From the NCBI GenBank assembly GCA_018713305.1, contig DVFI01000095.1, forward strand, positions 1-38,774: a stretch of 38,774 bases of DNA, read 5' to 3'. A model generated the notes under the pieces. The model made no database searches and was not told the DNA's origin. It saw nothing but the letters and a program-made list of their open reading frames with translations. Positions 1,158-37,433 of this stretch are shown here, piece after piece. The position numbers were made by a program, and so were the translations under genes. The stretch's first letter is position 1; the number at the start of each line of letters is the position of its first letter. This DNA is from Candidatus Avichristensenella intestinipullorum (GTDB lineage: Bacteria > Bacillota > Clostridia > Christensenellales > Aristaeellaceae).

Positions 1158-2180
1158 CTACCGGCCGGCAAGGCGCGCGGCGTACTCGACGGCGTGTTTC
1201 AGGCTCAGCTCGCTGGCCGTCCCCCTGCCCGCCTGGTCAAAGGCGGTACCGTGGTCGACCGACGTGCGGATGATGGGCAGGCCCAGCGTAATATTCACGC
1301 CGCCGACCGCCTGCCACGCCTTCGCGTCGCGGTCGTATACGAAGCCGAGCAGTTTCAGCGGAATGTGGCCCTGGTCATGGTACATGGCGACCACGACATC
1401 GTACCATCCGCCGCGCGCCTTGGCATATACGGTGTCAGGCGGCACGGGGCCGTCGGCGTCAATGTTCTCGGCGCGGGCCGCCTGGATGGCGGGCGAAATT
1501 TCCTCTATCTCCTCCCGGCCGAACAGTCCGTTCTCTCCGCAGTGGGGGTTGAGTCCCGCCACCCCCACGCGGGGCTGCGCAACGCCCATGCTGCGGCAGG
1601 CCCTGTCCGCCATGCGGATGACCTCCAGCACGCGTTCTTTCTTCACGCAGTTGCAGGCCTCGCGCAGCGACACATGGGTGGAAACGTGCGCGATGCGCAT
1701 GTCCTCGTCCGCCAACAGCATGGCGTAACGCGAAGTGTGGGTGTAGTGGGCATAGATTTCCGTGTGCCCGGAAAAGTGGTGGCCCGCCAGGTTCAGCGCC
1801 TCCTTGTTCAGCGCGTTGGTCACCGTGGCGTCCACGTCCCGCGCCATGGCCAGGGCAATGGCCTTTCGCACATACCGGAATGCCGCGTCGCCCGCCCGGG
1901 CGCTCACGCGGCCCGGAACAATCTCCTCCGGTGCGCAGGCGTGCATGTCCAGCACATCCAGCGTGCCGTGGGTATACAGCGCGTCATCCGGGGTCTCCAC
2001 AGGCCTGAGGGAAAGCCGCGGCATGCCGGGAATGTCCATGGCACGCACGAGAATCCCGCTGTCGCCGACAATCAGCGGCCTGCAGATATCGTACGTCTCC
2101 GCATTCGCCAGCAGGCGAACGCAGAGCTCCGGCCCAATGGACGCGGGGTCGCCCATGGTGATGGCAATGCGCGGCTTCAT
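1158..2180 (-). CDS. pdxA2: PdxA2-type 4-phospho-D-threonate/erythronate 3-dehydrogenase
   Basis: This 340-residue PdxA-family NAD-dependent dehydrogenase would oxidise and decarboxylate a 4-phosphorylated acid sugar to dihydroxyacetone phosphate in the cytoplasm. Visible family marks are the N-terminal ITMGDPASIGPE, GHTE (H139), the STHVSL histidine near residue 168, and YHDQGHIPLK near residue 268, which supply metal and substrate ligands. Its ATG at 2180 abuts the stop of the upstream lyase gene, so translation is probably coupled. PdxA proteins also make vitamin B6, but the neighbouring DUF1537 kinase, aldolase-type lyase and absence of other pdx genes point to the PdxA2 branch used for D-threonate or D-erythronate. 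The family is certain; the exact substrate stereochemistry is inferred. Confidence 0.9.
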   Translation of the reverse strand: MKPRIAITMGDPASIGPELCVRLLANAETYDICRPLIVGDSGILVRAMDIPGMPRLSLRPVETPDDALYTHGTLDVLDMHACAPEEIVPGRVSARAGDAAFRYVRKAIALAMARDVDATVTNALNKEALNLAGHHFSGHTEIYAHYTHTSRYAMLLADEDMRIAHVSTHVSLREACNCVKKERVLEVIRMADRACRSMGVAQPRVGVAGLNPHCGENGLFGREEIEEISPAIQAARAENIDADGPVPPDTVYAKARGGWYDVVVAMYHDQGHIPLKLLGFVYDRDAKAWQAVGGVNITLGLPIIRTSVDHGTAFDQAGRGTASELSLKHAVEYAARLAGR

Positions 2181-3077
2181 TCAACGCACCCCCTGTTCGG
2201 CCAGCTCGGCAAGCACCTGCCGGACGGCTGCCAGCCCTTCCTCCGGCAGACGGTCGAAGGGTCTGCGGCACTTGCCCACCGGATAGCCCTGCAGCGCGAC
2301 GGCGGCCTTGACAACGGTATTGGGATTGCCGAATCGGAAGCAGTCCCGAAAAGGACGAACGGCGTCCTGCGCCCTGCGCGCCCCTTCGATATCGCCCGCC
2401 AGGAAGCGCTCGTAGATGGCAGTCATGGTTTCGGGAAACACGTTGGCGCATCCGGCGATTCCCCCTGCCCCGCCCGCCAGCAGCGTCCAGAGGATGAGCG
2501 AGTCGTTGCCGGACAGCACGACAAACCCGCTGCCACGCGTGCGCTCGATGTATTGCAGGATGTTGTCAAAGTTGCCGCTGGAATCCTTGACGCCCACGAT
2601 ATTGGGAATACGGCTCAGCCGCTCCACCGTCGCAGGGGCCAGCGCATTCCCCGTGCGGGCGGGGATATTGTAAAGCAGGATGGGCGCATCGACGCTTTCT
2701 GCCACGGCGCGGTAGTGCGCATAGAGCTCCTCCTGGGAGGCCGCCGCGAAGCCCGGCGTAATGACGGACAATACGTCGGCCCCCATATCGGCCGCTTTTC
2801 GGGACAGGCGTATGGTATCGCGCGTGCCGACGCAGCCCGTCCCCGCAAACACCGGCACACGGCCGGCCGTCTGCGAAAGGCAGATGGCGAACACCTCTTC
2901 CTTCTCGCCTTCGGACAGGATATATCCTTCGCCGTTGGTGCCACAGGGGAAGAGGCCGTGTACGCCGCCTTCCAGCATCCTGTCGATGTGGTTTCGAAGC
3001 GCCGGTTCATTGATGCGCTCGTCCGCATGCATCGGCGTGAGGATGGGTACGATGATGCCGCCAAGGGTCTTTGCCAA
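2181..3077 (-). CDS. Dihydrodipicolinate synthase/N-acetylneuraminate lyase family protein
   Basis: This class I aldolase/lyase of the DapA superfamily has 298 residues, a normal length. Visible residues are CGTNGEG (45-51), the YNIPARTG tyrosine (Y136) and the Schiff-base lysine in VGVKDSSG (K164). The start chosen is TTG at 3077: a GGAGG lies 9 nt upstream and the protein then begins MAKTLGGIIVP, as family members do. Upstream in-frame codons give only unrelated sequence that overlaps the previous gene. It starts 1 nt after the dehydrogenase stop. Because it sits among sugar-acid genes, it is more likely to cleave or dehydrate a 2-keto sugar acid than to make lysine. Its substrate cannot be read from sequence. 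Confidence 0.88.
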   Translation of the reverse strand: MAKTLGGIIVPILTPMHADERINEPALRNHIDRMLEGGVHGLFPCGTNGEGYILSEGEKEEVFAICLSQTAGRVPVFAGTGCVGTRDTIRLSRKAADMGADVLSVITPGFAAASQEELYAHYRAVAESVDAPILLYNIPARTGNALAPATVERLSRIPNIVGVKDSSGNFDNILQYIERTRGSGFVVLSGNDSLILWTLLAGGAGGIAGCANVFPETMTAIYERFLAGDIEGARRAQDAVRPFRDCFRFGNPNTVVKAAVALQGYPVGKCRRPFDRLPEEGLAAVRQVLAELAEQGVR

Positions 3078-3078
3078 C

Positions 3079-4218
3079 TTATGCGCCTCCTTCCAGCAGT
3101 TCGCGATAGAGCCTGCGCGCATCGACGGCGGTAACGCGCCGCTTGTTATTGACCAGCAGCCGCTGCACGTCCATGCCCGCCGCGACCAGGGAATCCAGGT
3201 CGTCCGCAGATACGCCGTACGCATCCAGTCGGGTGGGGATATGCAGCGCCCTGACGATGTCTTCCATACGCCCGAGCACCCATGCGGCCTTATCGGCCGC
3301 GCCCGTCCGGCCCAGGCCGTCGTACACGCGCGCCAAATCCTCGCGGCAGGCGTCGAAATTAAAGCGCATGACCGGCATCAGCAGCATGGCGTTGGCCACG
3401 CCATGAGGAATGCGGTACTTTCCGCCCAGCGGGTAGCTGAGCGCATGCACCGCCGTGGTGCCGGAACAGGAAATGGCCACGCCCGCATAGTAGGCGGCCC
3501 GCAGCATGGCGTTCTTGGCCGCCATGTCTCCGGCTTCCAGACACGCGGGCTCGATATTGTCAAAAATCAGCCGCAGCGCTTCCAGGGCATACAAGTCGCT
3601 AAAGGGCGTGGCCTTCCTGGAGGTGAAGCACTCTATCGCATGGCACAGCGCGTCCACGCCGGTGGAGGCCGCAACGCCTGCAGGCAGCCCCCGCAGCAGT
3701 TCGCCGTCCAGCACGACCGCATCCGGCAGCATCTCGTCGGACACGATGCCCACCTTGAGCGCCTTCTCCGGCACGGCCACAATGCTGTTGGGCGTGGCTT
3801 CCGCGCCCGTGCCCGCCGTGGTGGGAACCATGACGGCAAAGCCGCTCCGCCGGGCCAGGGAAGCATCGTCCAGAAGCTCGCGCACGGTGTGCTCCCGCCC
3901 CACCACGGAGCAGAGCTTGGCCACATCCATGACGCTGCCGCCGCCAATGGCTACGATGGCCCCGGCGCCGGTCTCCCGGAAGGCGTCGACCGCCTCCTGT
4001 GCCTGCTCGCAGGTCGGCTCGGCGGGAATGTCCAGCAGCAGCGCCACGTCGTGGCCCGCGCGCCTGAGCAGGGCCAGAGGCCTGGCCAGGCCTCCCGCCT
4101 TCTCCACGCCCCGGTCGCCGAACACCGCAACCTTCTCGCAGGGAATCAGCGGCGCGGACAGTATCTCCAGCGCGCCTTCGCCCGCGTACACGGCGCGCGG
4201 CAACCTGCAGGCATACAT
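3079..4218 (-). CDS. Iron-containing alcohol dehydrogenase
   Basis: This group III (iron-type) dehydrogenase has 379 residues. It shows the NAD(P)-binding GGGSVMDVAK motif, the iron ligands of STGVDALCHAIE (Asp and His), and further histidines in AVHALSYPLGGKYRIPHGVAN. The start is ATG at 4218, which shares one base with the TGA of the upstream kinase (TGATG) and has GGGGAGG 8 nt upstream. A GTG at 4227 is possible but overlaps the ribosome site. In the operon it could interconvert a sugar-acid alcohol with its keto form, before or beside the kinase step. That role is inference, since the family is broad and includes butanol, glycerol and hydroxybutyrate dehydrogenases. Confidence 0.88.
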   Translation of the reverse strand: MYACRLPRAVYAGEGALEILSAPLIPCEKVAVFGDRGVEKAGGLARPLALLRRAGHDVALLLDIPAEPTCEQAQEAVDAFRETGAGAIVAIGGGSVMDVAKLCSVVGREHTVRELLDDASLARRSGFAVMVPTTAGTGAEATPNSIVAVPEKALKVGIVSDEMLPDAVVLDGELLRGLPAGVAASTGVDALCHAIECFTSRKATPFSDLYALEALRLIFDNIEPACLEAGDMAAKNAMLRAAYYAGVAISCSGTTAVHALSYPLGGKYRIPHGVANAMLLMPVMRFNFDACREDLARVYDGLGRTGAADKAAWVLGRMEDIVRALHIPTRLDAYGVSADDLDSLVAAGMDVQRLLVNNKRRVTAVDARRLYRELLEGGA

Positions 4219-5483
4219 CACTGGCACCTCCCCGTCATCCGTTCGGAAACGACATCTCCCAGCAGCGTGCGGCTGCCGAAACCGCCGCTCTTGGAGAGCA
4301 TCCGAATGGTCCTGCCCCGGAAAACCATGGAAAACATCACCACGCCCGCGCTCACTTCGCCCTCCAGCACAACGCGGGGAAAGCCGGCCTGCGTCAGGAA
4401 GGCGATGAGCGTGTCCCCGCCAATAATCATGGGCGTGTAGTCCCGGGCCTCCTCCATGCCGAGCATGCGCAGCAGCAGCGCGCCCAGCCTGCGCGCGATG
4501 AGCACCCGCGTCTCCTCCAGGCAGTCGTCCGGCTCGTCCTTGGGCACGTCCAAACCGGTATCCAGCATGAGCGTTCGGCGGGAGCGCATCACGTCGCCCA
4601 AAGAGGCCAGCAGACGCCTGCCGTCTTCGCTTTCCAGGTAATCCGCTTCCAGAAGCTGGCGGCGGCTGAGGATGACGCGCTTGTAACCCATGCGCTCACC
4701 GTATTCAAACTGATAGCGCGTGACGGGATTCAGGCTTCCGCATACGATGACGAGCGGAGCATGCACCTCGGGCGCTTCGGCGGCACGGTCGGGCAGGCCG
4801 AAATAGGCGGGCAGAGAGGCGGCGAAAGCGGCGCACCCGGCCGTCACCCGCAGCCGGCCTTCGTCCCGGATCAGGCGCGCGATGCGATGAAAATCCTCGT
4901 TGCATTCGGCGTCGAATACCGCGGCGGTGGAAGGGCCGTAGGCAAGCTTGCAGGGCGCTTTGCACTCGCACACGTTCAGCCCGTAGGGGCTCAGGAGCTG
5001 CCCCACGCGCGAGGTGCGCACCGGCTCAAACAAATCCCGGCCGTAGACGCTGTCCTCTATGCGCTGGCCGTCCACCCACTGGCAGCCGTCGCGCGTGACG
5101 CGGTTGATGTCCGGATAGGCGGGCGCAAACGCTGCGAAGTCCTCTCCGGTGGCGTCCAGCACGGCCTTAATGGCCGGACCGATGTTCCCGCGCAGACCGG
5201 AATCGGTCTTGACGTACAGGTGGGGCGCCCGCCACGCGCCGACGGCGGAGGCGATGCGATAGGTTTCATGGTAAGCGTCCCGGGCGGTACGATGGCGCGT
5301 TTCGGCGTCGATGACGACCACGTCGGCCCGGGGCGCTTCCTCGCCCAGGCGCGCGCCGACGGCCACCTGGACGGACGCCCCGCGCTTGGAAAACTGAACG
5401 CCGGTATCAAACGCGCCGGTAATATCATCCGCAATCACGACGAGGCGTGTAAGATATTCCATTTTTGTTTCATTTTGGAACAT
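4218..5483 (-). CDS. Four-carbon acid sugar kinase (DUF1537 family)
   Basis: This ATP-dependent kinase phosphorylates acid sugars such as D-threonate, D-erythronate or related compounds at the terminal hydroxyl. It has 421 residues, typical for the family. The N-terminal domain carries ADDITGAFDTG (residues 18-28) and KTDSGLRGN (about 96-104). The C-terminal domain carries the GSLNPVTR and GGDT segments expected for nucleotide binding. It is the first gene of the minus-strand operon, which continues with a dehydrogenase, a lyase and PdxA2. The start at 5483 (MFQNETK) has a weak AGG-type site. An internal ATG at 5462 has none. A 17-bp dyad at 5466-5482 overlaps the first start codon, which leaves the true start slightly open. 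Confidence 0.9.
   Translation of the reverse strand: MFQNETKMEYLTRLVVIADDITGAFDTGVQFSKRGASVQVAVGARLGEEAPRADVVVIDAETRHRTARDAYHETYRIASAVGAWRAPHLYVKTDSGLRGNIGPAIKAVLDATGEDFAAFAPAYPDINRVTRDGCQWVDGQRIEDSVYGRDLFEPVRTSRVGQLLSPYGLNVCECKAPCKLAYGPSTAAVFDAECNEDFHRIARLIRDEGRLRVTAGCAAFAASLPAYFGLPDRAAEAPEVHAPLVIVCGSLNPVTRYQFEYGERMGYKRVILSRRQLLEADYLESEDGRRLLASLGDVMRSRRTLMLDTGLDVPKDEPDDCLEETRVLIARRLGALLLRMLGMEEARDYTPMIIGGDTLIAFLTQAGFPRVVLEGEVSAGVVMFSMVFRGRTIRMLSKSGGFGSRTLLGDVVSERMTGRCQ
5466..5482. promoter_or_regulatory. Candidate operator dyad, copy 1
   Basis: The sequence TGTTTCATTTTGGAACA is an imperfect palindrome that agrees at 14 of 17 positions with a second copy at 5604-5620. It overlaps the kinase start codon. 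It is a candidate binding site for the divergently encoded PrpR-type regulator. A site this far downstream of the operon promoter would suit repression. Binding is inferred. Confidence 0.5.
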
Positions 5484-5544
5484 ATGTGCCTACATCCTCA
5501 TGGTTTTCTTTCTGAAATACTCCGGTTGTTTTGATTGCGCCTCT

Positions 5545-5574
5545 AGAATAGCAGATTTCCGCGCGCGATTTCAA
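5545..5574 (-). promoter_or_regulatory. Promoter of the sugar-acid operon
   Basis: On the minus strand, TTGAAA (5574-5569) and TATTCT (5550-5545) are separated by 18 bp. The -35 overlaps ATTTCAAT (5568-5575), a half-site like those of the two 17-bp dyads. The leader to the kinase start would be about 55 nt. Confidence 0.5.
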
Positions 5575-5603
5575 TCGCTTTTCTACGCTTTTTACGCCTG
5601 AAG

Positions 5604-5620
5604 TATTTCAATTTGAAACA
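5604..5620. promoter_or_regulatory. Candidate operator dyad, copy 2
   Basis: TATTTCAATTTGAAACA is a near-perfect palindrome and the sister of the dyad at 5466-5482. It lies between the two divergent promoters, 30 bp upstream of the operon -35 and 11 bp upstream of the regulator -35. It could therefore serve both activation of the operon and autoregulation. Confidence 0.5.
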
Positions 5621-5631
5621 ATATGAAGATG

Positions 5632-5660
5632 TTGATTTTGGAATAAACATCTGATATGAT
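5632..5660 (+). promoter_or_regulatory. Promoter of the PrpR-type regulator
   Basis: TTGATT (5632-5637) and TATGAT (5655-5660) are spaced by 17 bp, about 37 nt upstream of the regulator start. This is a sigma-A type promoter. No -24/-12 sigma-54 element was seen in this intergenic region. Confidence 0.5.
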
Positions 5661-5696
5661 GAAATAGGAAACACGCAGAGAAAGGGGCGCTTTCCG

Positions 5697-7499
5697 ATGA
5701 AGCGCACACGGGTGCTGGGTATCGCTCCCTACGAGGGCATGCGCAATTTGATGGTGCAGCTGGCCGAAAAAATGGAGGATGTCTGCCTGACGTCCTTTGT
5801 CGGCGACCTGGAGCACGGCGCCTCCATCGCCGCGCAGTATAGCGCGGAGGATTTCGACGTTATCCTCTCGCGCGGCGGCACGGCCGAACTCATCCGGCAA
5901 AAGACCGACCTGCCCGTCGTCGATATCGAGCTGAGCGTATACGACATCCTGCGTTCCATCCGGCTGGCCGAGAGCAGCGGCAACCGCTTCGCCATCGTCG
6001 GCTTTCCTGCCATCACGCGCAACGTTTCCTTTTTATGCGACGCGCTGCGCTGCCAGATAGATTACTACACCATCCACGACGAGGCCGAGGCGCGCGCCGC
6101 GCTTGCCAGGCTGTCGACGCAGGGCTGCAACATGGTGCTGTGCGACATGATTACCAATTCGCTGGCACAGGAGTACGGCATCCCCGCCATTCTCATCATC
6201 TCCGGCAGCGAAAGCGTCGAGGCTGCGCTGCGGCAGGCCGTGAGCATCAGCCGTGTGTTCCGGCCCATGCAGGACCGCGCCGCGCTTCTGCATGCGCTGC
6301 TCTGCGGGTACGCCGAACCGCTGACCGTGCTGGACGAGAGCGGCGCCGTGGTATACAACACAGTGGAAGAGCGCTTGCCCGTCGAGGTCGACAGGCGCAT
6401 GCGCACGCTGGTCTCCGGCGTGCTGGCGGAGGGCGGCAAGCGTTCCAACCTGACCCTCGGCGCCCGGCAGTATCAGCTGAGCGGGCGCGCGCTTCTTCAT
6501 GACGGCGCGCGCTATGCGGTGTTCCGCGTCCGGGAAAGCAGCGTGCATCCCCATTTGGAAAAATCCGGCATCCGCTTTCTGGACAAAGAAGAGGCGTTCG
6601 ACCTGTTTTTCAACAGCTTTTACGGCGTCACCCAGCCCAGCATGCTGAAGCTGTATGAGCGCTATGCCGAAAGCGACGCCCCGGTGATGATTGTCGGAGA
6701 AAAGGGCACGGGCAAAAACCAGATGGCGCGTCTGCTGTACGGCAAGAGCCGCTATCAGAACGCGCCGCTGTGCATGGTGGATTGCATGCAGCTGCGACAG
6801 AAGGGCTGGAATTATCTGATGGTGAACGAAAGCACACCCTTGGCCAGCTCCGGCATCACGCTGTGCTTTCTCAACGCCGACGCGCTGGAGGAGGCGGCAT
6901 TTTGCCAGCTCTTTACGGCCCTGCGCGACACGCAGTTCGCCAAGCGCAACCGGCTGATGTTCCGCTGCACGCTGGAAGCGGACGGAACGCTGCCGCCATG
7001 CTACCAGCGGCTGCTCTCCTGGTTCGGGTGCATGGTGCTGGAGCTTTCCCCGCTGCGCGCGCACAAACAGGAGATTCCGCAGCTGAGCAGCCTGTACATC
7101 AGCCTGCTCAACATGCGCAACGCCACCGAGATTATCGGCATTGAGCAGGAAGGCCTCCAGCTGCTGGAAGCATACGACTGGCCGGAAAACTACGACCAGT
7201 TCAAGCGCGTGCTGCGCGACCTGGTGGTGACGGGCGATACGCCTTACATCCAGGCCAGCGCCATCCGCGAAGCGTTGCGGCGCGAACGCGCCATGTACCC
7301 GGAAAGCCAGGCCGCCCCCCTGGCCGAGGCGCTGCGCGGCAAGACGCTGGAGGAGATATCGCTGCTGGCCATCCGCCAGGCGCTCGTCGAAGAGAAGGGG
7401 AACCAAACCGCCGCGGCCAACCGGCTGGGCATCAGCCGCACCACGCTGTGGCGCATGCTGCAAAAGTACGAAGCGGAAGGCGCAAATAAGACGCGATAA
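5697..7499 (+). CDS. PrpR-N/degenerate AAA+/Fis-type HTH regulator
   Basis: This 600-residue protein is probably the regulator of the divergent sugar-acid operon. Residues 1-190 match the PrpR N-terminal sensor (APYEGMRNLM, LSRGGTAELIR, VVDIELSVYDIL). A PAS-like linker follows. An AAA+-like domain begins near 310 with Walker A GEKGTGKN (334-341). A Fis-type helix-turn-helix ends the protein (GNQTAAANRLGISRTTLW). The AAA+ domain is eroded: the region that should hold the GAFTGA sigma-54 contact loop is missing, and Walker B reads LCFLNADAL instead of a LFLDEI type. It therefore probably does not drive sigma-54 promoters, and the nearby promoters look like sigma-A. AAAGGGG lies 9 nt before the ATG. 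The ligand may be a sugar acid or its phosphate (inference). Confidence 0.88.
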   Translation: MKRTRVLGIAPYEGMRNLMVQLAEKMEDVCLTSFVGDLEHGASIAAQYSAEDFDVILSRGGTAELIRQKTDLPVVDIELSVYDILRSIRLAESSGNRFAIVGFPAITRNVSFLCDALRCQIDYYTIHDEAEARAALARLSTQGCNMVLCDMITNSLAQEYGIPAILIISGSESVEAALRQAVSISRVFRPMQDRAALLHALLCGYAEPLTVLDESGAVVYNTVEERLPVEVDRRMRTLVSGVLAEGGKRSNLTLGARQYQLSGRALLHDGARYAVFRVRESSVHPHLEKSGIRFLDKEEAFDLFFNSFYGVTQPSMLKLYERYAESDAPVMIVGEKGTGKNQMARLLYGKSRYQNAPLCMVDCMQLRQKGWNYLMVNESTPLASSGITLCFLNADALEEAAFCQLFTALRDTQFAKRNRLMFRCTLEADGTLPPCYQRLLSWFGCMVLELSPLRAHKQEIPQLSSLYISLLNMRNATEIIGIEQEGLQLLEAYDWPENYDQFKRVLRDLVVTGDTPYIQASAIREALRRERAMYPESQAAPLAEALRGKTLEEISLLAIRQALVEEKGNQTAAANRLGISRTTLWRMLQKYEAEGANKTR

Positions 7500-28374: not shown

Positions 28375-30300
28375 ATGAAGAAGCTTCTTTCGATGCTTCT
28401 GGCGCTGGCGATGATGCTGAGCATGACGTCTGCCATGGCGGAGTCTGCGCCTGCCGGCGATGTGGGAACCGTCATCTATGGTTCGACCACTGAAATCACC
28501 GGCGACTTCGCGCCCGGCGCCTGGTGGTCCAACGGTGCGACCGACGCGATGCTCCGTGCGCTGAGCAACGACTATGAGACCGTCACCACCGATCAGGGCG
28601 GTGCTTTGGTCGTGAACCCCACGATTACCAAAGAGATGACGAGCACCGAGAACGAAGATGGCACCAAGACCTACACCATCACCATCAACGAGGGTCTGGT
28701 GTACAACAACGGCGATGCCATCACCGCCAAGGACTTCGTGTGGTCCACCGTGCTGCTGTGCAGCCCGCTGGTTCCCGGCCTGGCCATTTCCTCCTCTTCC
28801 TATCTGACCGTCGAGGGCGGCGAAGCGTTCTATAACGGCGAGACCCAGGCGCTCAGCGGCCTGCGCCTTATCGACGATTATACCTTCTCCGTCACCATCG
28901 TCGCGGACAAGCTCCCCTACTTCTATGACCTGAGCTACGCCGCGTTCGGCGCATTCGACATCGAGTACTGGCTGGGCGAAGGCTACGACGTGGCCGACGA
29001 CGGCGAGGGCTGCTACATCACCGGCGGCGACTTCACCGTGGACGCCATCAAGCCGCAGCTGGACTATGCCCGCTTCAACGCGGGTGAGGACCGCGTGTCC
29101 GCCGGCCCGTACAACCTGATTGAGTTTGACCAGAGCGCGCTGCAGGCCACGCTGGAAATCAACCCTAACTACGCCGGCAACTTTGAGGGCGTCAAGCCGT
29201 CCATCCAGCGCATCGTGGTGACCAAGGCCGAAGATGCGACCTGGGCCGACGCCATCCGCACCGGCGCCTTCAACTTCTACGATACCATCACCGACGGCGT
29301 CCAGGTTAACACCGCGATGGATATGATTGAGGACGAAACGCTGGCGGCGTCGCTGGGCTACGGCTTTGACTACGTCACCTTCGACCGTTCCGGCTACGGC
29401 AAGATCCAGTTCCAGTGCGACTTTGGCCCGACCCAGTTCATCAACGTGCGCCATGCCGTCGCGATGCTGCTGGACCGCAACGAGTTCGCCAACACCTTCT
29501 GCCAGGGCTGGGGCGGCGTCGTCAACGGCCCGTACGGCACCGGCATGTGGCAGTTCATCGACTCCGAGGAGTGGCTGAACGAGAACCTGAACACCTACGC
29601 CTATGACGCGGCCGCGGCGACGCAGCTGCTCATCGACGACGGCTGGGTCTACAACGCGGACGGCACCGACTACACCACGGGCATCCGCTACAAGAAGGTC
29701 ACCGAGGAAGAGGCCGGCACGTATGCGCACAACGTGACGCTGGACGACGGCACCATCCTCATGCCGCTCATCATTGAATGGAGCTCCTCCGAGGGCAACA
29801 CCGTGTCCGACCTGCTGGCCGTCATGCTGGCCGAGAACCCGGACGTGGCCGCCGCCGGTATGGAAATCCGTCAGAACATCATGACCTTCGACGAGCTGCT
29901 CAACTACCTCTACCGCGATGCGACCCAGGGCGAACAGTACGGCGTGCCGACCTACGGCATGTACAACTTGGCCACCAACTGGGAGCCGACTTATGACGCA
30001 TCCTACAACTTCACGAGCGATCCGGACATGGTAGCCGCCGGCTGGAACACCAACTACCTGTTCGACGATACGCTGGATCAGCTGACCATGGACATGGTCT
30101 ATGGCGTCGACTCCAGCGATACCGAAACGTACCTGAACATCTGGCGGGAGTACATCAAGCGCTGGAATGAGCTGCTGCCGGAAATCCCGCTGTACTCCAA
30201 CGTGTATCTGACCATGTATCCCGACTGGCTCGAGGGCTACGAGCAGGATTCCTTCTGGGACTTCCAGCAGGCGATTCTGTACGCGACCGTCGCGGAGTAA
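28375..30300 (+). CDS. Oligopeptide-type ABC transporter substrate-binding protein (SBP_bac_5)
   Basis: This 641-residue binding protein of the Opp/Dpp type probably captures peptides outside the membrane. Residues 1-23 are a Sec signal peptide (MKKLLSMLL to AMAES) with a signal peptidase I-like end and no lipobox cysteine. That is unusual for a Gram-positive binding protein, which is normally a lipoprotein. The body shows the family pattern: the KTYTITINEGLVYNNGDAIT and AKDFVWS segment near residues 100-125, YTFSVTI, and INVRHAVAMLLDRNEFAN near 360. AAAGGAGG lies upstream of ATG 28375. It heads a five-gene transporter operon plus a small membrane gene. A strong hairpin after it may set its transcript higher than that of the permeases. 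Confidence 0.92.
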   Translation: MKKLLSMLLALAMMLSMTSAMAESAPAGDVGTVIYGSTTEITGDFAPGAWWSNGATDAMLRALSNDYETVTTDQGGALVVNPTITKEMTSTENEDGTKTYTITINEGLVYNNGDAITAKDFVWSTVLLCSPLVPGLAISSSSYLTVEGGEAFYNGETQALSGLRLIDDYTFSVTIVADKLPYFYDLSYAAFGAFDIEYWLGEGYDVADDGEGCYITGGDFTVDAIKPQLDYARFNAGEDRVSAGPYNLIEFDQSALQATLEINPNYAGNFEGVKPSIQRIVVTKAEDATWADAIRTGAFNFYDTITDGVQVNTAMDMIEDETLAASLGYGFDYVTFDRSGYGKIQFQCDFGPTQFINVRHAVAMLLDRNEFANTFCQGWGGVVNGPYGTGMWQFIDSEEWLNENLNTYAYDAAAATQLLIDDGWVYNADGTDYTTGIRYKKVTEEEAGTYAHNVTLDDGTILMPLIIEWSSSEGNTVSDLLAVMLAENPDVAAAGMEIRQNIMTFDELLNYLYRDATQGEQYGVPTYGMYNLATNWEPTYDASYNFTSDPDMVAAGWNTNYLFDDTLDQLTMDMVYGVDSSDTETYLNIWREYIKRWNELLPEIPLYSNVYLTMYPDWLEGYEQDSFWDFQQAILYATVAE

Positions 30301-30335: not shown

Positions 30336-30370
30336 GGGGGCGGGCAAGGCTTGCCCGCTCCCCTCTTTTT
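30336..30370 (+). terminator. Intra-operon hairpin with T-tract (attenuator/partial terminator)
   Basis: GCGGGCAA (30340-30347) pairs with TTGCCCGC (30351-30358), extended by GGGG/CCCC flanks and followed by TCTTTTT. It lies in the 97-nt gap between the binding-protein gene and the first permease gene. It probably lets only part of transcription continue or protects the upstream mRNA end. Confidence 0.7.
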
Positions 30371-30397: not shown

Positions 30398-31417
30398 ATG
30401 GGCAAGTATGTCCTCAAGCGTCTCGGGTACGTGGTGCTGGTATTTCTCATCATTTCGTTCCTGATGTACGCACTGTACAACCTAATCCCCACTGACCCCG
30501 CGCGCGCGCAGCTGGAGCCCATGCGCCAGCAGCTGCGCCCGGACGAGTATCAGGTCATGTACCAGCAGCTTCGCCAGCAGATGGGCCTGGACGATTCCCT
30601 TCTGGTGCGGTATCTGCGCTGGCTCGGCCTGTGGACGGATATGGACGGCACATTTAACGGCATGTTCCAGGGCAATATGGGGTATTCTCAGTTCTTCAAG
30701 AAAGACGCTGTTGACGTTATCATCGAACCGATGGGGAACACGATCTTCATCAATATCTTTTCCACGATTCTCTCTTTGGGCATCACCATACCGGTCGGCA
30801 TCTACTGCGCCGTGCATAAAGGCAAAAAATTCGATCAGGGCATGCAGGTCGTGACCATTCTGGGGTACAGCATCCCGATTTATATCATTGCGCTGGTCTT
30901 TATGTACTTCTTCTGCGTAACATGGCGCATATTCCCGGTCATGGGCAGCCGGACAGCCGGCATTATCTATGCAAACAGCTGGGAAGCGTTTGTGGACAAG
31001 CTGTACCACTTTACGCTGCCCGTTATCGTTATGACGTTCGGGTCCCTGGGCGGCATGACGCGCTATGTGCGCTCCTCCATGATTGAGGCGCTGAGCATGG
31101 ACTATATCCGCACGGCGCGCGCCAAAGGCCTGCGGGAAAAGGTGGTTATCTATTCCCACGCCTGGCGCAACGCGCTTTTGCCGGTCGTTACCAGCATTTT
31201 CGGCTGGTTCCTGAGCATTTTCAGCGGCTCGGTCATCATTGAAAACACGTTCGCTCTCAACGGAATGGGCCGACTGTACTGGCAGGGCCTGAACAACCAG
31301 GATTTCGAGCTGGTGCTGGCGATTCAGATGTTCTATACGGTCGTCTCGCTGATTGGCAGCCTGCTTATCGACATCAGCTACGGCCTGGTCGACCCGCGCG
31401 TGCGTGTAAACAAATAA
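30398..31417 (+). CDS. oppB: Oligopeptide ABC transporter permease, OppB/DppB type
   Basis: This 339-residue membrane protein is one half of the importer channel. It has the N-terminal TM1 (YVLKRLGYVVLVFLIISFLM), a longer extracellular loop typical of OppB, and about five further helices. The cytoplasmic EAA-type coupling loop reads DYIRTARAKGLREKVVIYSHAWRNALLP and contacts an ATPase. The C-terminus ends DPRVRVNK, as in the family (usually DPRIRY). A GGATGGAG site precedes the ATG. It is of normal length, unlike its partner permease downstream. Confidence 0.93.
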   Translation: MGKYVLKRLGYVVLVFLIISFLMYALYNLIPTDPARAQLEPMRQQLRPDEYQVMYQQLRQQMGLDDSLLVRYLRWLGLWTDMDGTFNGMFQGNMGYSQFFKKDAVDVIIEPMGNTIFINIFSTILSLGITIPVGIYCAVHKGKKFDQGMQVVTILGYSIPIYIIALVFMYFFCVTWRIFPVMGSRTAGIIYANSWEAFVDKLYHFTLPVIVMTFGSLGGMTRYVRSSMIEALSMDYIRTARAKGLREKVVIYSHAWRNALLPVVTSIFGWFLSIFSGSVIIENTFALNGMGRLYWQGLNNQDFELVLAIQMFYTVVSLIGSLLIDISYGLVDPRVRVNK

Positions 31418-31433: not shown

Positions 31434-33287
31434 ATGGCGAATAAAAAGAAAAAAGAGTTCTTCCTCGTGCGCTGGTTCAAGCGCGTCTTCCTCGGCACGG
31501 ACAGAGAAGTCAGGAGCATTCTGGAAGAGGAACAGGTGCAAACCCCGCTGCGCACGGTGGTGCACAACTTTGTGCGCAAGAAAAGCGCGATGCTGGGCGT
31601 CATCGTATTCCTGTGCATCTTTGCCCTGGTCATCATCGGTCCCTACATCTGGAAGCTGGACCTGAGCGAGCAGGACAGCACGCTGATTAACCTGCCCCCG
31701 GGCTATAACATGATGAGCCTGCCCAAGGAAACGGAAGGCAAGGTGTCCGATATTGCGGCGGGGCGCACCTACGGCATCGGCGTGGATACGGACGGCCATG
31801 TGTACACCTGGGGCCATACCCGCATTACCGACAAAATTGACATCGCCGATATCCCCGAGGAGGTACAGGAAGCCGATTTGTCCCTGATCGCCGCCGGCGA
31901 CGACCACGCGGTCGCGCTGGATGAAAACGGGCAGCTCTACGTCTGGGGCAATACCCGCCTGCGCCAGGACAACTTCTCCCGCGATATGGAAAAAGGCATG
32001 GAAACCGGCGAAAACTGGGATATCATCCAGCTGGAGGCCAGCAACCAGTTCTCCGCCGCGGTGTCCAGCGAGGGCACGCTCTATCTGTGGGGCAACCCCA
32101 ACATGGCGGACGTCAAAATACGCTCCGAGTACCAGGGCAATATCGCCAAGGTGGCCCTGACCGCCAACGAATATGTCAGCCTGCTCAAGGACGGCACGGT
32201 CGCCTACACCGGCTACAAGGGCAGCGGCAACCCGCTGGCCAGCATCCCCGAAGGGCTGACCGGCAAGACGGTCGTCGATATCGCCTCCACCGGCAAGACC
32301 GCCGCGGCGCTGACCGAGGACGGCGAAGTGTATGTCTGGGGCAACGCGACCTCGGGCGAAGCGAACCTGCCGGTATTTTCGTCCAGGCCCGTGGCGCTCT
32401 ACGGCGGCCGGTTCCACTACACCGCCCTGCTGGAGGACGGCAGCGTGGTCAGCTGGGGCAACAACAAATACGGTCAGACGGATGTGCCCGCCTCGCTCAA
32501 CGGCAAGGAGATTGTCGGCATATATACCGGCAACTTCCAGAACTATGCGCTGGACTCCGAAGGCAACGTGCATACCTGGGGCCTGAAGGGCTTCCTGCTG
32601 GGCACGGATGACCTGGGCCGCGACATGCTCACCCGCATCATCAACGGCGGCCGCGTGACCATGACGGTCGGCGCCATCTCCGTTGTCATCGCCACGTTTA
32701 TCGGCGTGCTGCTGGGCGGCCTGGCCGGCTATTTCGGCGGCAAGGTCGATATTCTGGTCATGCGCATCGCGGAAATTGTCGGCGGCCTGCCCTTTATCCC
32801 CTTTGCGATGATTCTTTCCGCCGTCATCGGAAGCCGCATCGACCCCACGCGCAGGATGTACCTCATCATGGTGGTTCTGGGCGTGCTGAGCTGGACCGGC
32901 ACCTGCCGCCTCATTCGCGCGCAGATTCTGGCCCAGCGCGAGATGGAATACGTCACCGCCGCCAAGGCCATGGGCATCAGCGAGCTGTCGATTGTGTTCC
33001 GGCATATTATGCCCAACGTGTTTTCCATCCTGCTGGTCAGCATGACGCTGGATTTTGCCACCTGCATGCTGACGGAGTCCACGCTGTCCTATCTGGGCTT
33101 CGGCATTCCGCTGCCCACGCCGACCTGGGGCAATCTGCTCGACGGCGCCAACAACTCCGTGGTCATCCAGCAGTATTGGTGGCGCTGGGTGTTCCCCGCG
33201 GCCATCTTCGGCATGTGCACCATCTGCATCAACCTGATCGGCGACGGTCTGCGCGATGCGATTGACCCCAAATCCAATGAGCGCTGA
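31434..33287 (+). CDS. oppC: OppC-type ABC permease with inserted RCC1/BLIP-II-like beta-propeller
   Basis: This 617-residue permease is about twice the usual OppC length (about 300). Residues 1-51 are a basic cytoplasmic tail and TM1 spans about 52-72. The family resumes at LGTDDLGRD (389-397), followed by about five helices and the EAA loop (EYVTAAKAMGISELSIVFRHIMPN, 505-528). Between them, residues 104-383 hold seven RCC1-type repeats, each ending in a Gly-x-[VL]-x-x-[WT]-G strand: TWG 125-127, VWG 170-172, LWG 218-220, YTG 258-260, VWG 301-303, SWG 340-342 and TWG 381-383. Repeat spacing is 39-48 residues. By the positive-inside rule the propeller is extracellular. One open frame covers both halves without a break. 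The ribosome site is AGGAGG. Role of the propeller is unknown. Confidence 0.93.
   Translation: MANKKKKEFFLVRWFKRVFLGTDREVRSILEEEQVQTPLRTVVHNFVRKKSAMLGVIVFLCIFALVIIGPYIWKLDLSEQDSTLINLPPGYNMMSLPKETEGKVSDIAAGRTYGIGVDTDGHVYTWGHTRITDKIDIADIPEEVQEADLSLIAAGDDHAVALDENGQLYVWGNTRLRQDNFSRDMEKGMETGENWDIIQLEASNQFSAAVSSEGTLYLWGNPNMADVKIRSEYQGNIAKVALTANEYVSLLKDGTVAYTGYKGSGNPLASIPEGLTGKTVVDIASTGKTAAALTEDGEVYVWGNATSGEANLPVFSSRPVALYGGRFHYTALLEDGSVVSWGNNKYGQTDVPASLNGKEIVGIYTGNFQNYALDSEGNVHTWGLKGFLLGTDDLGRDMLTRIINGGRVTMTVGAISVVIATFIGVLLGGLAGYFGGKVDILVMRIAEIVGGLPFIPFAMILSAVIGSRIDPTRRMYLIMVVLGVLSWTGTCRLIRAQILAQREMEYVTAAKAMGISELSIVFRHIMPNVFSILLVSMTLDFATCMLTESTLSYLGFGIPLPTPTWGNLLDGANNSVVIQQYWWRWVFPAAIFGMCTICINLIGDGLRDAIDPKSNER
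31734..32582 (+). repeat. Seven in-frame RCC1/BLIP-II-type repeats within the OppC-type permease
   Basis: The protein-level repeats have the core AAGxxxxxALxxDGxVYxWG and occur seven times in residues 101-383. The last full unit (residues 320-360) has YGQTDVP, like the roughly 40-residue blades of BLIP-II. At nucleotide level the copies are diverged, so this is an old domain and not a recent tandem duplication. Confidence 0.85.
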
Positions 33288-33301: not shown

Positions 33302-34294
33302 ATGGCATTGCTGGAAATGAATGATTTAAGAACCTTCTTCACCACCAAGCGCGGCATCATCAAGGCGGTCAACGGCGTGTCATACAGCGTGGAAGCGGGC
33401 AGAACGCTCGGCGTGGTCGGCGAGTCCGGCTCGGGCAAGAGCGTTTCGGCCATGAGCATCCTTCGCCTGCTGGACGGCAACGGCTACATCGACGGCGGCA
33501 GCATCCTCTTTGACGGGCGCGAGCTGACCAAGCTGCCGATGAGCGAAATGTACCGCATCCGCGGCAACCAGATTTCCGTCATCTTTCAGGAGCCCATGAC
33601 CAGCCTGAACCCCGTCTTCACCGTGGAACGCCAGGTGTCCGAGCCGTTCATTGTCCACCAGGGCATGAGCAAGCAGCAGGCCGCGGTCAAGGTCATCGAG
33701 ATGCTCAAGGACGTCAAAATCCCCAATCCCGAGGCGGTCGCCAAGCAGTATCCGCATCAGCTTTCCGGCGGCATGCGCCAGCGCGTCACGATTGCCATGG
33801 CCCTCGCCTGCCAGCCCAAGCTGCTCATCGCGGACGAGCCGACCACGGCCCTGGACGTGACCATCCAGGCGCAAATCCTCAAGCTCATGAACGACCTCAA
33901 GCGCGAGCACGGCACGTCCATCCTCTTTATCACCCATGACCTGGGCGTTATCTGCCAGATGGCGGACGACGTCGCCGTCATGTACTGCGGACAGGTCGTG
34001 GAAATGGCCCCGGCACGCACCATCTTTGGCAAGCCCCAATACTCGCACCCGTACACCGAAGGATTGATGGTCTCCATCCCGCGTCTGGACACGCCCGCCA
34101 ACGAGCGCCTCGACGCCATCCCCGGCGCGGTCCCCCATCCGCTGGACTTGCCCAAGGGCTGCAAGTTTGCGCCGCGGTGCAAATACTGCACCAAGCGCTG
34201 CGAAGAGGAAGAACCGGAATTTGTGCGCGTGAGCGAAACGCAGCAAATCCGCTGCTTCTATCCGGAAAAGGAGGCGCGACATGCAAGCAAATGA
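33302..34294 (+). CDS. oppD: Oligopeptide ABC transporter ATPase, OppD type
   Basis: This 330-residue ATP-binding subunit of the importer is normal in length. Motifs are Walker A GESGSGKS (about 40-47), Q-loop IFQEP, signature LSGGMRQR, Walker B LLIADEP and the H-loop ITHDLG. The C-terminal oligopeptide-family domain has the cysteine cluster [14 protein letters not shown] with a later Cys (RCFYP), as in proteins of this subfamily that bind an Fe-S cluster. GGAGG lies before the ATG, 14 nt after the oppC stop. Its 3' end overlaps the oppF start by 14 nt. Confidence 0.94.
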
Positions 34295-35828
34295 CAACAC
34301 GCGGAAAGTACTGCTGCGCATTTCCAACCTGAAGCAGTATTTCCCTCTCAAGCGAAAGGGCCTGTATGTCCGCGCCAACGACGGCGTCAGCCTGGACATC
34401 TATGAGGGCGAAACATTTGGCCTGGTCGGTGAATCGGGCTGTGGAAAGTCCACGCTGGGCCGGACGCTGCTCCAGCTCTACCGTCAGACCGACGGACGCA
34501 CCATGTACTACGGGCGCACGCTGGATGATTTGGCCCCCTCCTATGTCGGCCAAACCCTGCGCACGCTCGAAAAGCGCCGCGCGCAAATCAAATCGCTGAA
34601 CGAAAAGCGTGACGCCCTGCAGCGCGAGTACGATGCGATGCCGGACGGCCGCGCCAAGTACATCAAGAAAAACGAGCTCGACCGGGCGCAAAAGGCTGCC
34701 AACGACGCTTTCCTGGACGTGGTCAATCTCGTCGGCGGTTTCATCAATGCCAACGATTTGCGGGCAGTTTCCGAGGCTTTCCTGCGGGTGTACCGCCTGT
34801 CCTCCCGCCAGTGCGCGGCAGAGGAAAAGCTGGCGAAACTGCAGCTGCGCTATGATGACGCCGCCTTCGTCCTGAAGGAGGCCAACGAGGCGGGCAATCC
34901 TTCCGCCGCGCAGCAGGACCATGTCAAAAAGGCGGAAAACGCCCTGCACGCCCAGGAAAAGGTCATTGAGGACATCAAAGCGCTGCTGCGGGCGGAACGC
35001 GCAAAGATAGAGGAAATGCGCGCGCCCTACCGCGACGACGAGGAGTTTCAGCGCCTGGAGCAGTACCGCGACGACGGCATCGATTTGGCGCGCCTGCGCT
35101 ACAACGAGATTCGTCACCTGCGCCGCGACCTGCAAATGATTTTCCAGGACCCCTATTCCTCGCTCAACCCGCGCATGACGGTCGGCCAGATCATCGGCGA
35201 AGGCATGCGGGCGCACAAGTTCTTCAAGCGCAACGACAAGCGCATGCAGGATGAAATCCTCCGCGTGATGAACGACGCGGGCCTGGCGCCGTACTTCCTG
35301 CACCGCTACCCGCACCAGTTTTCCGGCGGACAGCGCCAGCGCATCGGCATCGCCCGTTCGCTTGCGGTTCGGCCCAAGTTCGTGGTATGCGACGAAGCGG
35401 TCAGCGCGCTGGATGTCTCCATCCAGTCGCAGATTATCAACCTGCTGCGTGACTTGAAGGAACAGCAGCACCTGACCTACATGTTCATTACGCACGATTT
35501 GTCGGTCGTCAAGTACATTTCCGACCGCATCGGCGTCATGTACCTGGGCAATCTGGTCGAGCTGGCCCCGTCCCAGGAGCTGTTTGACCATCCGCGCCAT
35601 CCTTACACCGAGGCGCTGATGTCCGCTATCCCGACGACGGACGTGGACTCGCAGCGCGAAATACAGATTCTGGAGGGCGATATTCCCAGCCCCGTCCGGC
35701 CGCCGTCGGGCTGCAAATTCCATACCCGCTGCCGCTACTGCACGGAAATCTGCGAGCACGCCGAGCCTGATTGGGTAGAAATCGGTCCGAACCATTTTGT
35801 GGCCTGCCATCATATGCTGGGCCAATGA
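34281..35828 (+). CDS. oppF: OppF-type ABC ATPase with coiled-coil insertion
   Basis: This second ATPase of the importer has 515 residues; OppF is usually about 320. The N-terminal part is ordinary to Walker A (GESGCGKST, 50-58) and YYGRTLDDL (77-84). The Q-loop (MIFQDP, 286-291), signature FSGGQRQR (347-354), Walker B FVVCDEA (367-373), H405 and the C-terminal cysteine cluster (CKFHTRCRYCTEIC) are intact. Residues about 85-278 are an insertion of around 195 residues, rich in Lys, Glu, Ala, Leu and Gln with heptad-like stretches (90-145 and 178-262). It replaces the normal short linker of about 30 residues and would project from the nucleotide-binding domain in the cytoplasm. AAAAGGAGG precedes the ATG. 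Confidence 0.93.
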   Translation: MQANDNTRKVLLRISNLKQYFPLKRKGLYVRANDGVSLDIYEGETFGLVGESGCGKSTLGRTLLQLYRQTDGRTMYYGRTLDDLAPSYVGQTLRTLEKRRAQIKSLNEKRDALQREYDAMPDGRAKYIKKNELDRAQKAANDAFLDVVNLVGGFINANDLRAVSEAFLRVYRLSSRQCAAEEKLAKLQLRYDDAAFVLKEANEAGNPSAAQQDHVKKAENALHAQEKVIEDIKALLRAERAKIEEMRAPYRDDEEFQRLEQYRDDGIDLARLRYNEIRHLRRDLQMIFQDPYSSLNPRMTVGQIIGEGMRAHKFFKRNDKRMQDEILRVMNDAGLAPYFLHRYPHQFSGGQRQRIGIARSLAVRPKFVVCDEAVSALDVSIQSQIINLLRDLKEQQHLTYMFITHDLSVVKYISDRIGVMYLGNLVELAPSQELFDHPRHPYTEALMSAIPTTDVDSQREIQILEGDIPSPVRPPSGCKFHTRCRYCTEICEHAEPDWVEIGPNHFVACHHMLGQ

Positions 35829-36240: not shown

Positions 36241-36264
36241 GCGGAAGCGGCTTGCAGCCGCTCC
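36241..36264. repeat. REP-like palindrome, copy 1
   Basis: A 24-bp element beginning GCGGAAGCGGCTTGC contains the stem AGCGGC/GCCGCT. It matches the element at 36340-36363 at 23 of 24 positions. Confidence 0.65.
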
Positions 36265-36339
36265 TCGCGGCGTACACGCCGCCGCTGCGGATTGTATTTG
36301 GAGGGCTGCGGCCCTCCAATCCTCCCAAAGGGGTTTTCG

Positions 36340-36363
36340 GCGGAAGCGGCTTGCTGCCGCTCC
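36340..36363. repeat. REP-like palindrome, copy 2
   Basis: This is the second copy of the 24-bp palindromic element, differing from copy 1 at one base in the loop. A GGAGGGC/GCCCTCC hairpin (36300-36317) lies between the copies. Confidence 0.65.
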
Positions 36364-36564: not shown

Positions 36565-37020
36565 CTATCGGTTCCGTGTGCGCCGCCTGGCCACAAGCCA
36601 TGTGGCGGCCATGCCCGCCACGGAGACCAGCAGCCCGGCTCCGGCCAGCGCAACCGGGCTGTCTACGCCGGTCGCGGGCAGGGTTTCAGCGCTTTCCACG
36701 GTGTTTGTCACGGTGAAGCCGTGCGCCTCATCCCCTTCGATGCGCACACGGACAAGTATCCCTTCGCTCGTGAAGCGGTCCCCGTCGCCGCAGGCAACGT
36801 CCCCGACGTTCTCCCGTACCGTATTGGTATCGAGATGGCCGTCCGCATACGTCTGGCCTTCCACCGATTCTCTCACGGTATAGGTAGGTGTATCTTTGGC
36901 CATCGTCGGCATGCGTTGGGACGTTTTCAAACGTTGCCTTCCAGCCGCTGCCTTCGTTAAGCGTAACGGAGCCGTGTTCATACCCATCTCTCCGCCCGTT
37001 GGCAAGCCTTTTCTCTCCCG
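36565..37020 (-). pseudogene. 3' remnant of an LPXTG-anchored Cna_B-type surface protein, frameshifted
   Basis: On the minus strand the last part encodes a sortase signal: TLPATG (LPATG at 36681-36667), a hydrophobic helix and the tail ARRRTRNR. Before it, Cna_B-domain text is split between frames: GSVTLNEGSGWKATFENVP and THADDG in one frame, then PTYTVRESVEGQTYADG in another. The shift lies near 36890-36905. There is no signal peptide, start or full adhesin domain. This is therefore the decayed end of a pilin-like or collagen-binding-like wall protein. Its 5' side runs into a damaged sigma-factor gene, which suggests a deletion or recombination joint. Confidence 0.7.
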
Positions 37021-37433
37021 CGCGGCAGGAGTGGCATTTCTCTCGCGCGGCCGGAGTGACCACAGTGATTCCGCCGCCTCGCTGTGCTGCGTGTCCGGCC
37101 AATATGTACGCCGATCACTCGCTGCGGCTGGCACAGGAAATAGTAACGAAAAATTTCTTCCTGTGCCTGCTCCGGCAAAAGGACAAGGGCAGCGGCAAGT
37201 TCCGCATGGTACAGAACGGCGGTCTGGCCGCAGGCGGTAAAAAGGTATTCTTCAAGCAGCTCCGGCTCGGCAAGCTGGACAAACCTTTCATTCATCAGAT
37301 AGTCAAGGGAAACTTCCCGTTCCCACCTCCGGCGCAGCTTCAAAATCTTGTCTATGGCTGCGTGACGAATGACAATCTTGCAATAGGCATTATGCGTGTG
37401 CCGGATATGCTCTTGATATTCTAACTCGGTCAA
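36978..37433 (-). pseudogene. Truncated ICE-type sigma-70-like factor with foreign tail
   Basis: The frame starts at TTG 37433, with AAAAGGAG 6 nt upstream, and reads 151 residues. The first roughly 110 match a small sigma-70-like protein common on clostridial integrative elements (TELEYQEHIRHTHNAYC, IVIRHAAIDKILKLRRRWER, EVSLDYLMNERFVQLAEPE, LLPEQAQEEIFRYYFL). The last part of region 4 is lost: after GRTRSTAR the frame reads unrelated sequence and enters the Cna_B remnant, ending at 36978. The tail overlaps the adhesin remnant by about 40 nt in another frame. It is probably non-functional, because the DNA-binding helix is incomplete. It marks a former mobile element. Confidence 0.7.

Follow-up and report, generated by a model that had tools for sequence, protein, structure and literature searches.

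The oppC gene analyzed here encodes the C subunit of an importer of the OppABCDF type that is complete and falls within a single Bacillota subfamily. In that subfamily, a seven-bladed propeller of the RCC1/BLIP-II type was inserted once into the TM1-TM2 loop of OppC, and the ATPase OppF carries a cytosolic insertion of its own. The gene lies on a 38,774-nucleotide contig of Candidatus Avichristensenella intestinipullorum, the whole of which is referred to as the window. A sequence-only reading had recognized the permease-propeller architecture, which stands, but had regarded the protein as an isolated oddity, whereas it belongs to a phylum-wide monophyletic subfamily. All components of the importer are of a known kind, whereas their conserved combination with two linked insertions is new and apparently undescribed. 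A search of papers available without subscription returned no description of an RCC1-bearing ABC permease, in agreement with the earlier reading, to which no characterized peptide importer built in this way was known.

OppC and its propeller

The oppC frame is uninterrupted, as first read, and runs from an ATG to a stop codon with exact coordinates (31434 to 33287, + strand; 617 residues). Pfam profiles matched OppC_N at residues 37 to 89 (E value, 7.7e-11) and BPD_transp_1 at residues 424 to 613 (E value, 2.9e-30), both above the Pfam cut-offs; together with the structural match to E. coli OppC, these bear out the normal OppC core that had been proposed. The same protein matched RCC1_2 (E value, 6.3e-37; five repeats pass individually) and the RCC1-like domain PF25390 (E value, 9.7e-44). 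Residues G390, D392, and G395 of the LGTDDLGRD motif were invariant in 61 homologues. The insertion is precise: residues 31 to 76 of E. coli OppC align with residues 44 to 89 of the window OppC and residues 81 to 301 with residues 386 to 614, so that ~296 residues stand where the E. coli protein has ~4. Sequence comparison relates the C-terminal part to OppC and DppC chains of known structure and the middle part to BLIP-II. Among the NCBIfam equivalogs compared (Opp1C to Opp4C, OppC, and DppC), the best was Opp4C with 297.5 bits against a cut-off of 350, and the protein was therefore assigned to none of the named Opp equivalogs.

The seven RCC1-type repeats claimed from the sequence were recovered both as WG-type positions (residues 126, 171, 219, 258, 302, 341, and 382; spacings, 39 to 48) and as seven blades in an AlphaFold2 model built from 61 diverse homologues (alignment A1; mean pLDDT, 86.8; pTM, 0.80), in which almost all propeller blocks reached a pLDDT of at least 90. 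DSSP assigned seven three-stranded blades, the third strand of blade four being very short. Modeling OppC alone, which had been suggested as a check, thus predicted the propeller, and the BLIP-II type proposed for it was supported by a Foldseek search of the PDB, where BLIP-II was the top match (3qi0; TM-score, 0.77 by target length). The search also returned E. coli OppC (8z21_B; 0.72), DppC, and M. tuberculosis OppABCD. Within the genome of the window, RCC1_2 matches (PF13540 search) were found only in the oppC propeller gene, and a PF00415 profile search gave no matches because PF13540 is the better model for these repeats. Loop-class conservation alone, across the 61 homologues, picked out no binding face on the propeller.

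Both the model and the alignment to E. coli OppC place the propeller, as claimed, in the loop before LGTDDLGRD, between TM1 (helix 50 to 72) and the motif at residues 389 to 397. Homology with solved OppC and DppC structures and the lysine-rich N terminus suggest an extracellular position next to the substrate entrance; that homology supports the extracellular loop of the earlier reading, and the TM1-TM2 region of DppC is periplasmic (PMC12136057).

The system resembles E. coli OppBCDF and DppABCDF and M. tuberculosis OppABCD and DppABCD (structures 8z21, 8z1v-z, 8j5q-t, and 8wd9) in its gene set, its GTDxxGRD motif, its EAA-type loop, and the C-terminal cysteine cluster of its ATPases, and the core of the window OppC has a TM-score of 0.72 and 40% identity to OppC. 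However, the E. coli and M. tuberculosis systems have neither a propeller nor a four-helix insertion in OppF. BLIP-II (1jtd and 3qi0), a beta-lactamase inhibitor, is likewise a seven-bladed RCC1-type propeller (26% identity), but it is a free secreted protein, whereas here the propeller is a domain within a membrane permease; neither beta-lactamase binding nor Ran exchange is claimed for it. MalF-P2 is also a large extracytoplasmic domain inserted into a type I importer permease, the outside location being assigned by homology in our case, but its fold differs from the RCC1 propeller and it lies in the TM3-TM4 loop instead of the TM1-TM2 loop. The DppB scoop is another extracytoplasmic TM1-TM2 addition and contacts the binding protein, but it comprises ~30 residues and belongs to the B subunit, whereas the propeller belongs to the C subunit. 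Some clostridial OppCs (L011, L014 to L016, and L018) have a 200- to 400-residue insert in the same loop; it showed no RCC1 or other significant Pfam match, and these proteins form a separate clade with an ordinary OppF (Walker A to Q-loop spacing, 49 to 50).

Table 1. Features of the opp operon in the window
Feature	Coordinates	Strand	Description and basis
oppA	28375..30300	+	Substrate-binding protein, 641 aa; SBP_bac_5, E 3.1e-31 (Pfam)
Terminator-like hairpin	30336..30362	+	oppA-oppB gap; 12 bp (9 G-C) and T run; consensus match only
oppB	30398..31417	+	Permease, 339 aa; BPD_transp_1, E 5.1e-39
oppC	31434..33287	+	Permease with propeller, 617 aa; Pfam, AlphaFold2 model, Foldseek
TM1 of OppC	31581..31649	+	Helix, residues 50-72; AlphaFold2 model, OppC_N 37-89
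Propeller	31743..32582	+	Seven-bladed RCC1/BLIP-II type, residues 104-383; Pfam, AlphaFold2 pLDDT mostly >90, Foldseek BLIP-II 3qi0 (TM-score by target 0.77)
LGTDDLGRD motif	32598..32624	+	Residues 389-397; sequence; marks return to transmembrane core
OppC transmembrane core	32625..33284	+	TM2 onward, EAA-type loop; BPD_transp_1 424-613, 8z21_B (TM-score by target 0.72)
oppD	33302..34294	+	ATPase, 330 aa; Walker A to Q-loop spacing 54, normal
oppF	34281..35828	+	ATPase with cytosolic insertion, 515 aa; motif spacing, AlphaFold2 model, Foldseek
OppF insertion	34566..35030	+	Residues ~96-250, four long helices; spacing 237, AlphaFold2 pLDDT mostly >90 over helices

The operon, its binding protein, and the OppF insertion

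The operon contains a family-5 binding protein, OppB, and two oligo_HPY ATPases in addition to OppC, and the order oppA-oppB-oppC-oppD-oppF was preserved at most loci having sufficient flank. The best NCBIfam match of OppB was Opp4B (2e-72), under its cut-off. The hairpin between oppA and oppB is possibly a leaky terminator. Genes for M3 and M42 peptidases lie next to 10 and 5, respectively, of ~74 propeller operons, and no regulator or sensor gene was conserved beside the operons. The cargo is probably peptides, judging from homology and family, the peptidase neighbors being only suggestive.

The nearest solved structure to the window OppA is OppA 9p48. Its Sec signal peptide (28375 to 28450) ends in A-x-A and lacks a lipobox cysteine, and other Opp-type binding proteins of the same genome (L160, L162, L163, and L166) likewise have a Sec signal without the cysteine, even though the genome encodes Lgt and LspA. 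The propeller was considered as a substitute for the lipid anchor of OppA. This idea was rejected since an OppA lipobox is present in many propeller-system relatives, so that tethering of a nonlipidated OppA is not a general role, and since a lipobox is also missing from the Opp-type binding proteins encoded in this genome without a propeller partner. In six systems (L214, L215, L221, L224, L225, and L226), OppA is seemingly circularly permuted: a segment resembling residues 571 to 639 of the window OppA (42% identity) precedes the body (residues 23 to 556), and in L224 the segment spans residues 122 to 198 and the body residues 195 to 751.

The OppF insertion, which had gone unmentioned in the earlier reading, is linked to the propeller. 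It lies between Walker A and the Q-loop and measures ~135 to 190 residues across propeller operons. The distance between the two motifs was 220 to 249 residues in the OppF proteins of propeller operons (72/72) and 186 to 237 in those of the most divergent ones, as opposed to ~49 to 62 in OppD and in the non-propeller Opp/Dpp ATPases measured, with few exceptions: a non-propeller OppD measured 107, and three frames of the OppD class gave ~100, ~120, and ~400, probably through misfiring of the motif search. In the AlphaFold2 model of OppF (pLDDT, 87.2; pTM, 0.85), the insertion is predicted to form helices 96 to 119, 124 to 156, 160 to 203, and 209 to 250, and the rest of the protein has the standard fold (8z21_D; TM-score, 0.83). 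The insertion diverges fast (mean distance, 1.81), and with no exception observed, it and the OppC propeller mark the same subfamily. In E. coli Dpp, DppC pairs with DppF (PMC12136057), so the propeller and the OppF insertion should share one transporter half. These importers thus make up a separate subfamily in which an extracellular addition in OppC is matched by a cytosolic one in OppF, presumably on the same half.

Elsewhere in the window, the region from 1158 to 7499, judged by eye from its translations, contains PdxA-like, DapA-like, iron alcohol dehydrogenase-like, and four-carbon acid-sugar kinase-like genes on the - strand and an adjoining sigma-54-type regulator on the + strand, and resembles an ordinary cluster for the catabolism of sugar acids. 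A GC-rich intergenic stretch at 36241 to 36363 (+) holds two near-identical 24-nt copies, GCGGAAGCGGCTTGC(A/T)GCCGCTCC, 99 nt apart. The frame at 36565 to 37134 (-) ends in LPATG, a hydrophobic stretch, and a basic tail, like the C terminus of a sortase-anchored protein, and looks like a fragment.

Recurrence and single origin of the architecture

Co-occurrence of RCC1 and BPD_transp_1 domains in Bacillota, which had been proposed as a check, was found at every rank searched. The propeller-OppC architecture was present in 48 of 250 genomes of the family (one match being a contig-end fragment of the transmembrane domain [TMD] and a few others being truncated or split), in 17 of 391 genomes of the class, and in 14 of 398 genomes of the phylum, each count including the genome of the window. 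A wider search of genome contigs retained 80 loci, one of them from the cultured isolate Hungatella effluvii DSM 24995 (L102; 58% identity). Most records are from Clostridia and Erysipelotrichaceae; a few metagenome-assembled genome titles give other phyla and may be mislabeled. Plasmid records gave no match, which argues against a plasmid origin. In one family member (G148:C21:26165-27962), the propeller OppC is in two frames with a break near residues 274 to 289, representing a frameshift, a sequencing error, or a real split.

The genome of the window is fragmented (151 contigs), and a frame joining two genes through an assembly error was a concern of the earlier reading. The same frame is nevertheless conserved in dozens of independent assemblies and in the H. 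effluvii isolate, by which an assembly artefact is ruled out, and the Pfam E values together with recurrence in many genomes exclude a chance fusion; we give this explanation practically no weight.

All propeller OppCs form one clade. In a tree of the TMD alone, 61 of them were separated with a support of 0.968 from 33 propeller-less paralogues, which were mostly near matches from a nonexhaustive sampling of such OppCs, and no full-length propeller-less relative was found among the strong matches in the family, class, and phylum searches. Purifying selection acts on the propeller, though less strongly than on the TMD: the median dN/dS values were 0.445 and 0.218, respectively, and propeller values were 0.23 to 0.40 for pairs with the window, a rough measure because of the shared ancestry of many pairs and the high level of synonymous change. 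Across the 61 homologues, 248 of the 280 propeller columns were gapless, and propeller and TMD distances were correlated (0.88 to 0.92).

Possible roles of the propeller

Taking MalF-P2 and the DppB scoop as analogues, we tentatively favor, at somewhat below an even chance, a role in docking or retaining OppA over the translocator. The propeller would serve as a protein-docking platform holding OppA above the translocator, on the half opposite the OppB scoop motif, and docking could raise the local OppA concentration or steady its delivery. Its action would resemble that of MalF-P2 in maltose import, although the two folds are unrelated, and the helical insertion of OppF in the same half would probably be a second interaction or regulatory module. 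The loop position, equivalent to that of the DppB scoop, the MalF-P2 precedent, and the retention of the propeller point in this direction. In E. coli, the TM1-TM2 region of DppB carries a scoop that inserts into DppA (PMC12136057), and PMC3328499 cites work reporting that MalF-P2 binds MalE throughout the cycle. The partial distance correlation between propeller and OppA, 0.41 in 73 systems, was the largest for the propeller, but it fell to 0.18 without divergent members (60 systems; bootstrap, -0.01 to 0.45), where OppA was the top partner of the propeller in only 18% of bootstraps. The same analysis recovered the expected pairings of the B-C core (0.47) and of D with F (0.49), so it has some power.

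The propeller could instead bind a target other than OppA, such as the cell wall, a surface polymer, a host or neighbor protein, or the peptide cargo, and place the importer near its substrate, which is unlikely. In its favor, BLIP-II, the closest structural match, is a protein-binding propeller, and a dN/dS about twice that of the TMD is what a surface recognition domain might show. However, the propeller occupies exactly the same position in every member, over a wide range of hosts and habitats, the correlation of its distances with those of the TMD indicates that it has seemingly not been swapped between lineages, and no cell-wall-binding family matched OppC in Pfam. That the propeller and the OppF insertion constitute a paired sensing unit (a transceptor reporting to a cytosolic partner) or an externally gated importer seems distinctly unlikely. 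The two insertions are on C and F, subunits in contact in E. coli Dpp, and co-occur without observed exception, and the propeller shows partial distance correlations of 0.24 to 0.29 with the OppF parts (60 systems); against this stand the lack of a conserved adjacent regulator or sensor gene and the fast variation of the OppF insertion. If true, such a coupled unit would mean that Bacillota harbor a widespread, unrecognized class of peptide importers that act as sensors or are gated from outside. More doubtful again is that the propeller is a decoration which the importer tolerates and which plays only a small stabilizing part. The different insert at the same loop of the unrelated clostridial OppC clade implies that the site tolerates insertions, but the long retention of the propeller with no loss observed and the purifying selection on it argue otherwise.

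The subfamily is widespread, being common in gut and rumen Clostridia, and has a protein-binding-type propeller beside the channel mouth. The ways in which importers of cells lacking a periplasm capture their binding proteins and coordinate them are incompletely understood. Many binding proteins of this lineage have no lipid anchor, and the propeller provides a natural removable module with which binding-protein capture can be tested.
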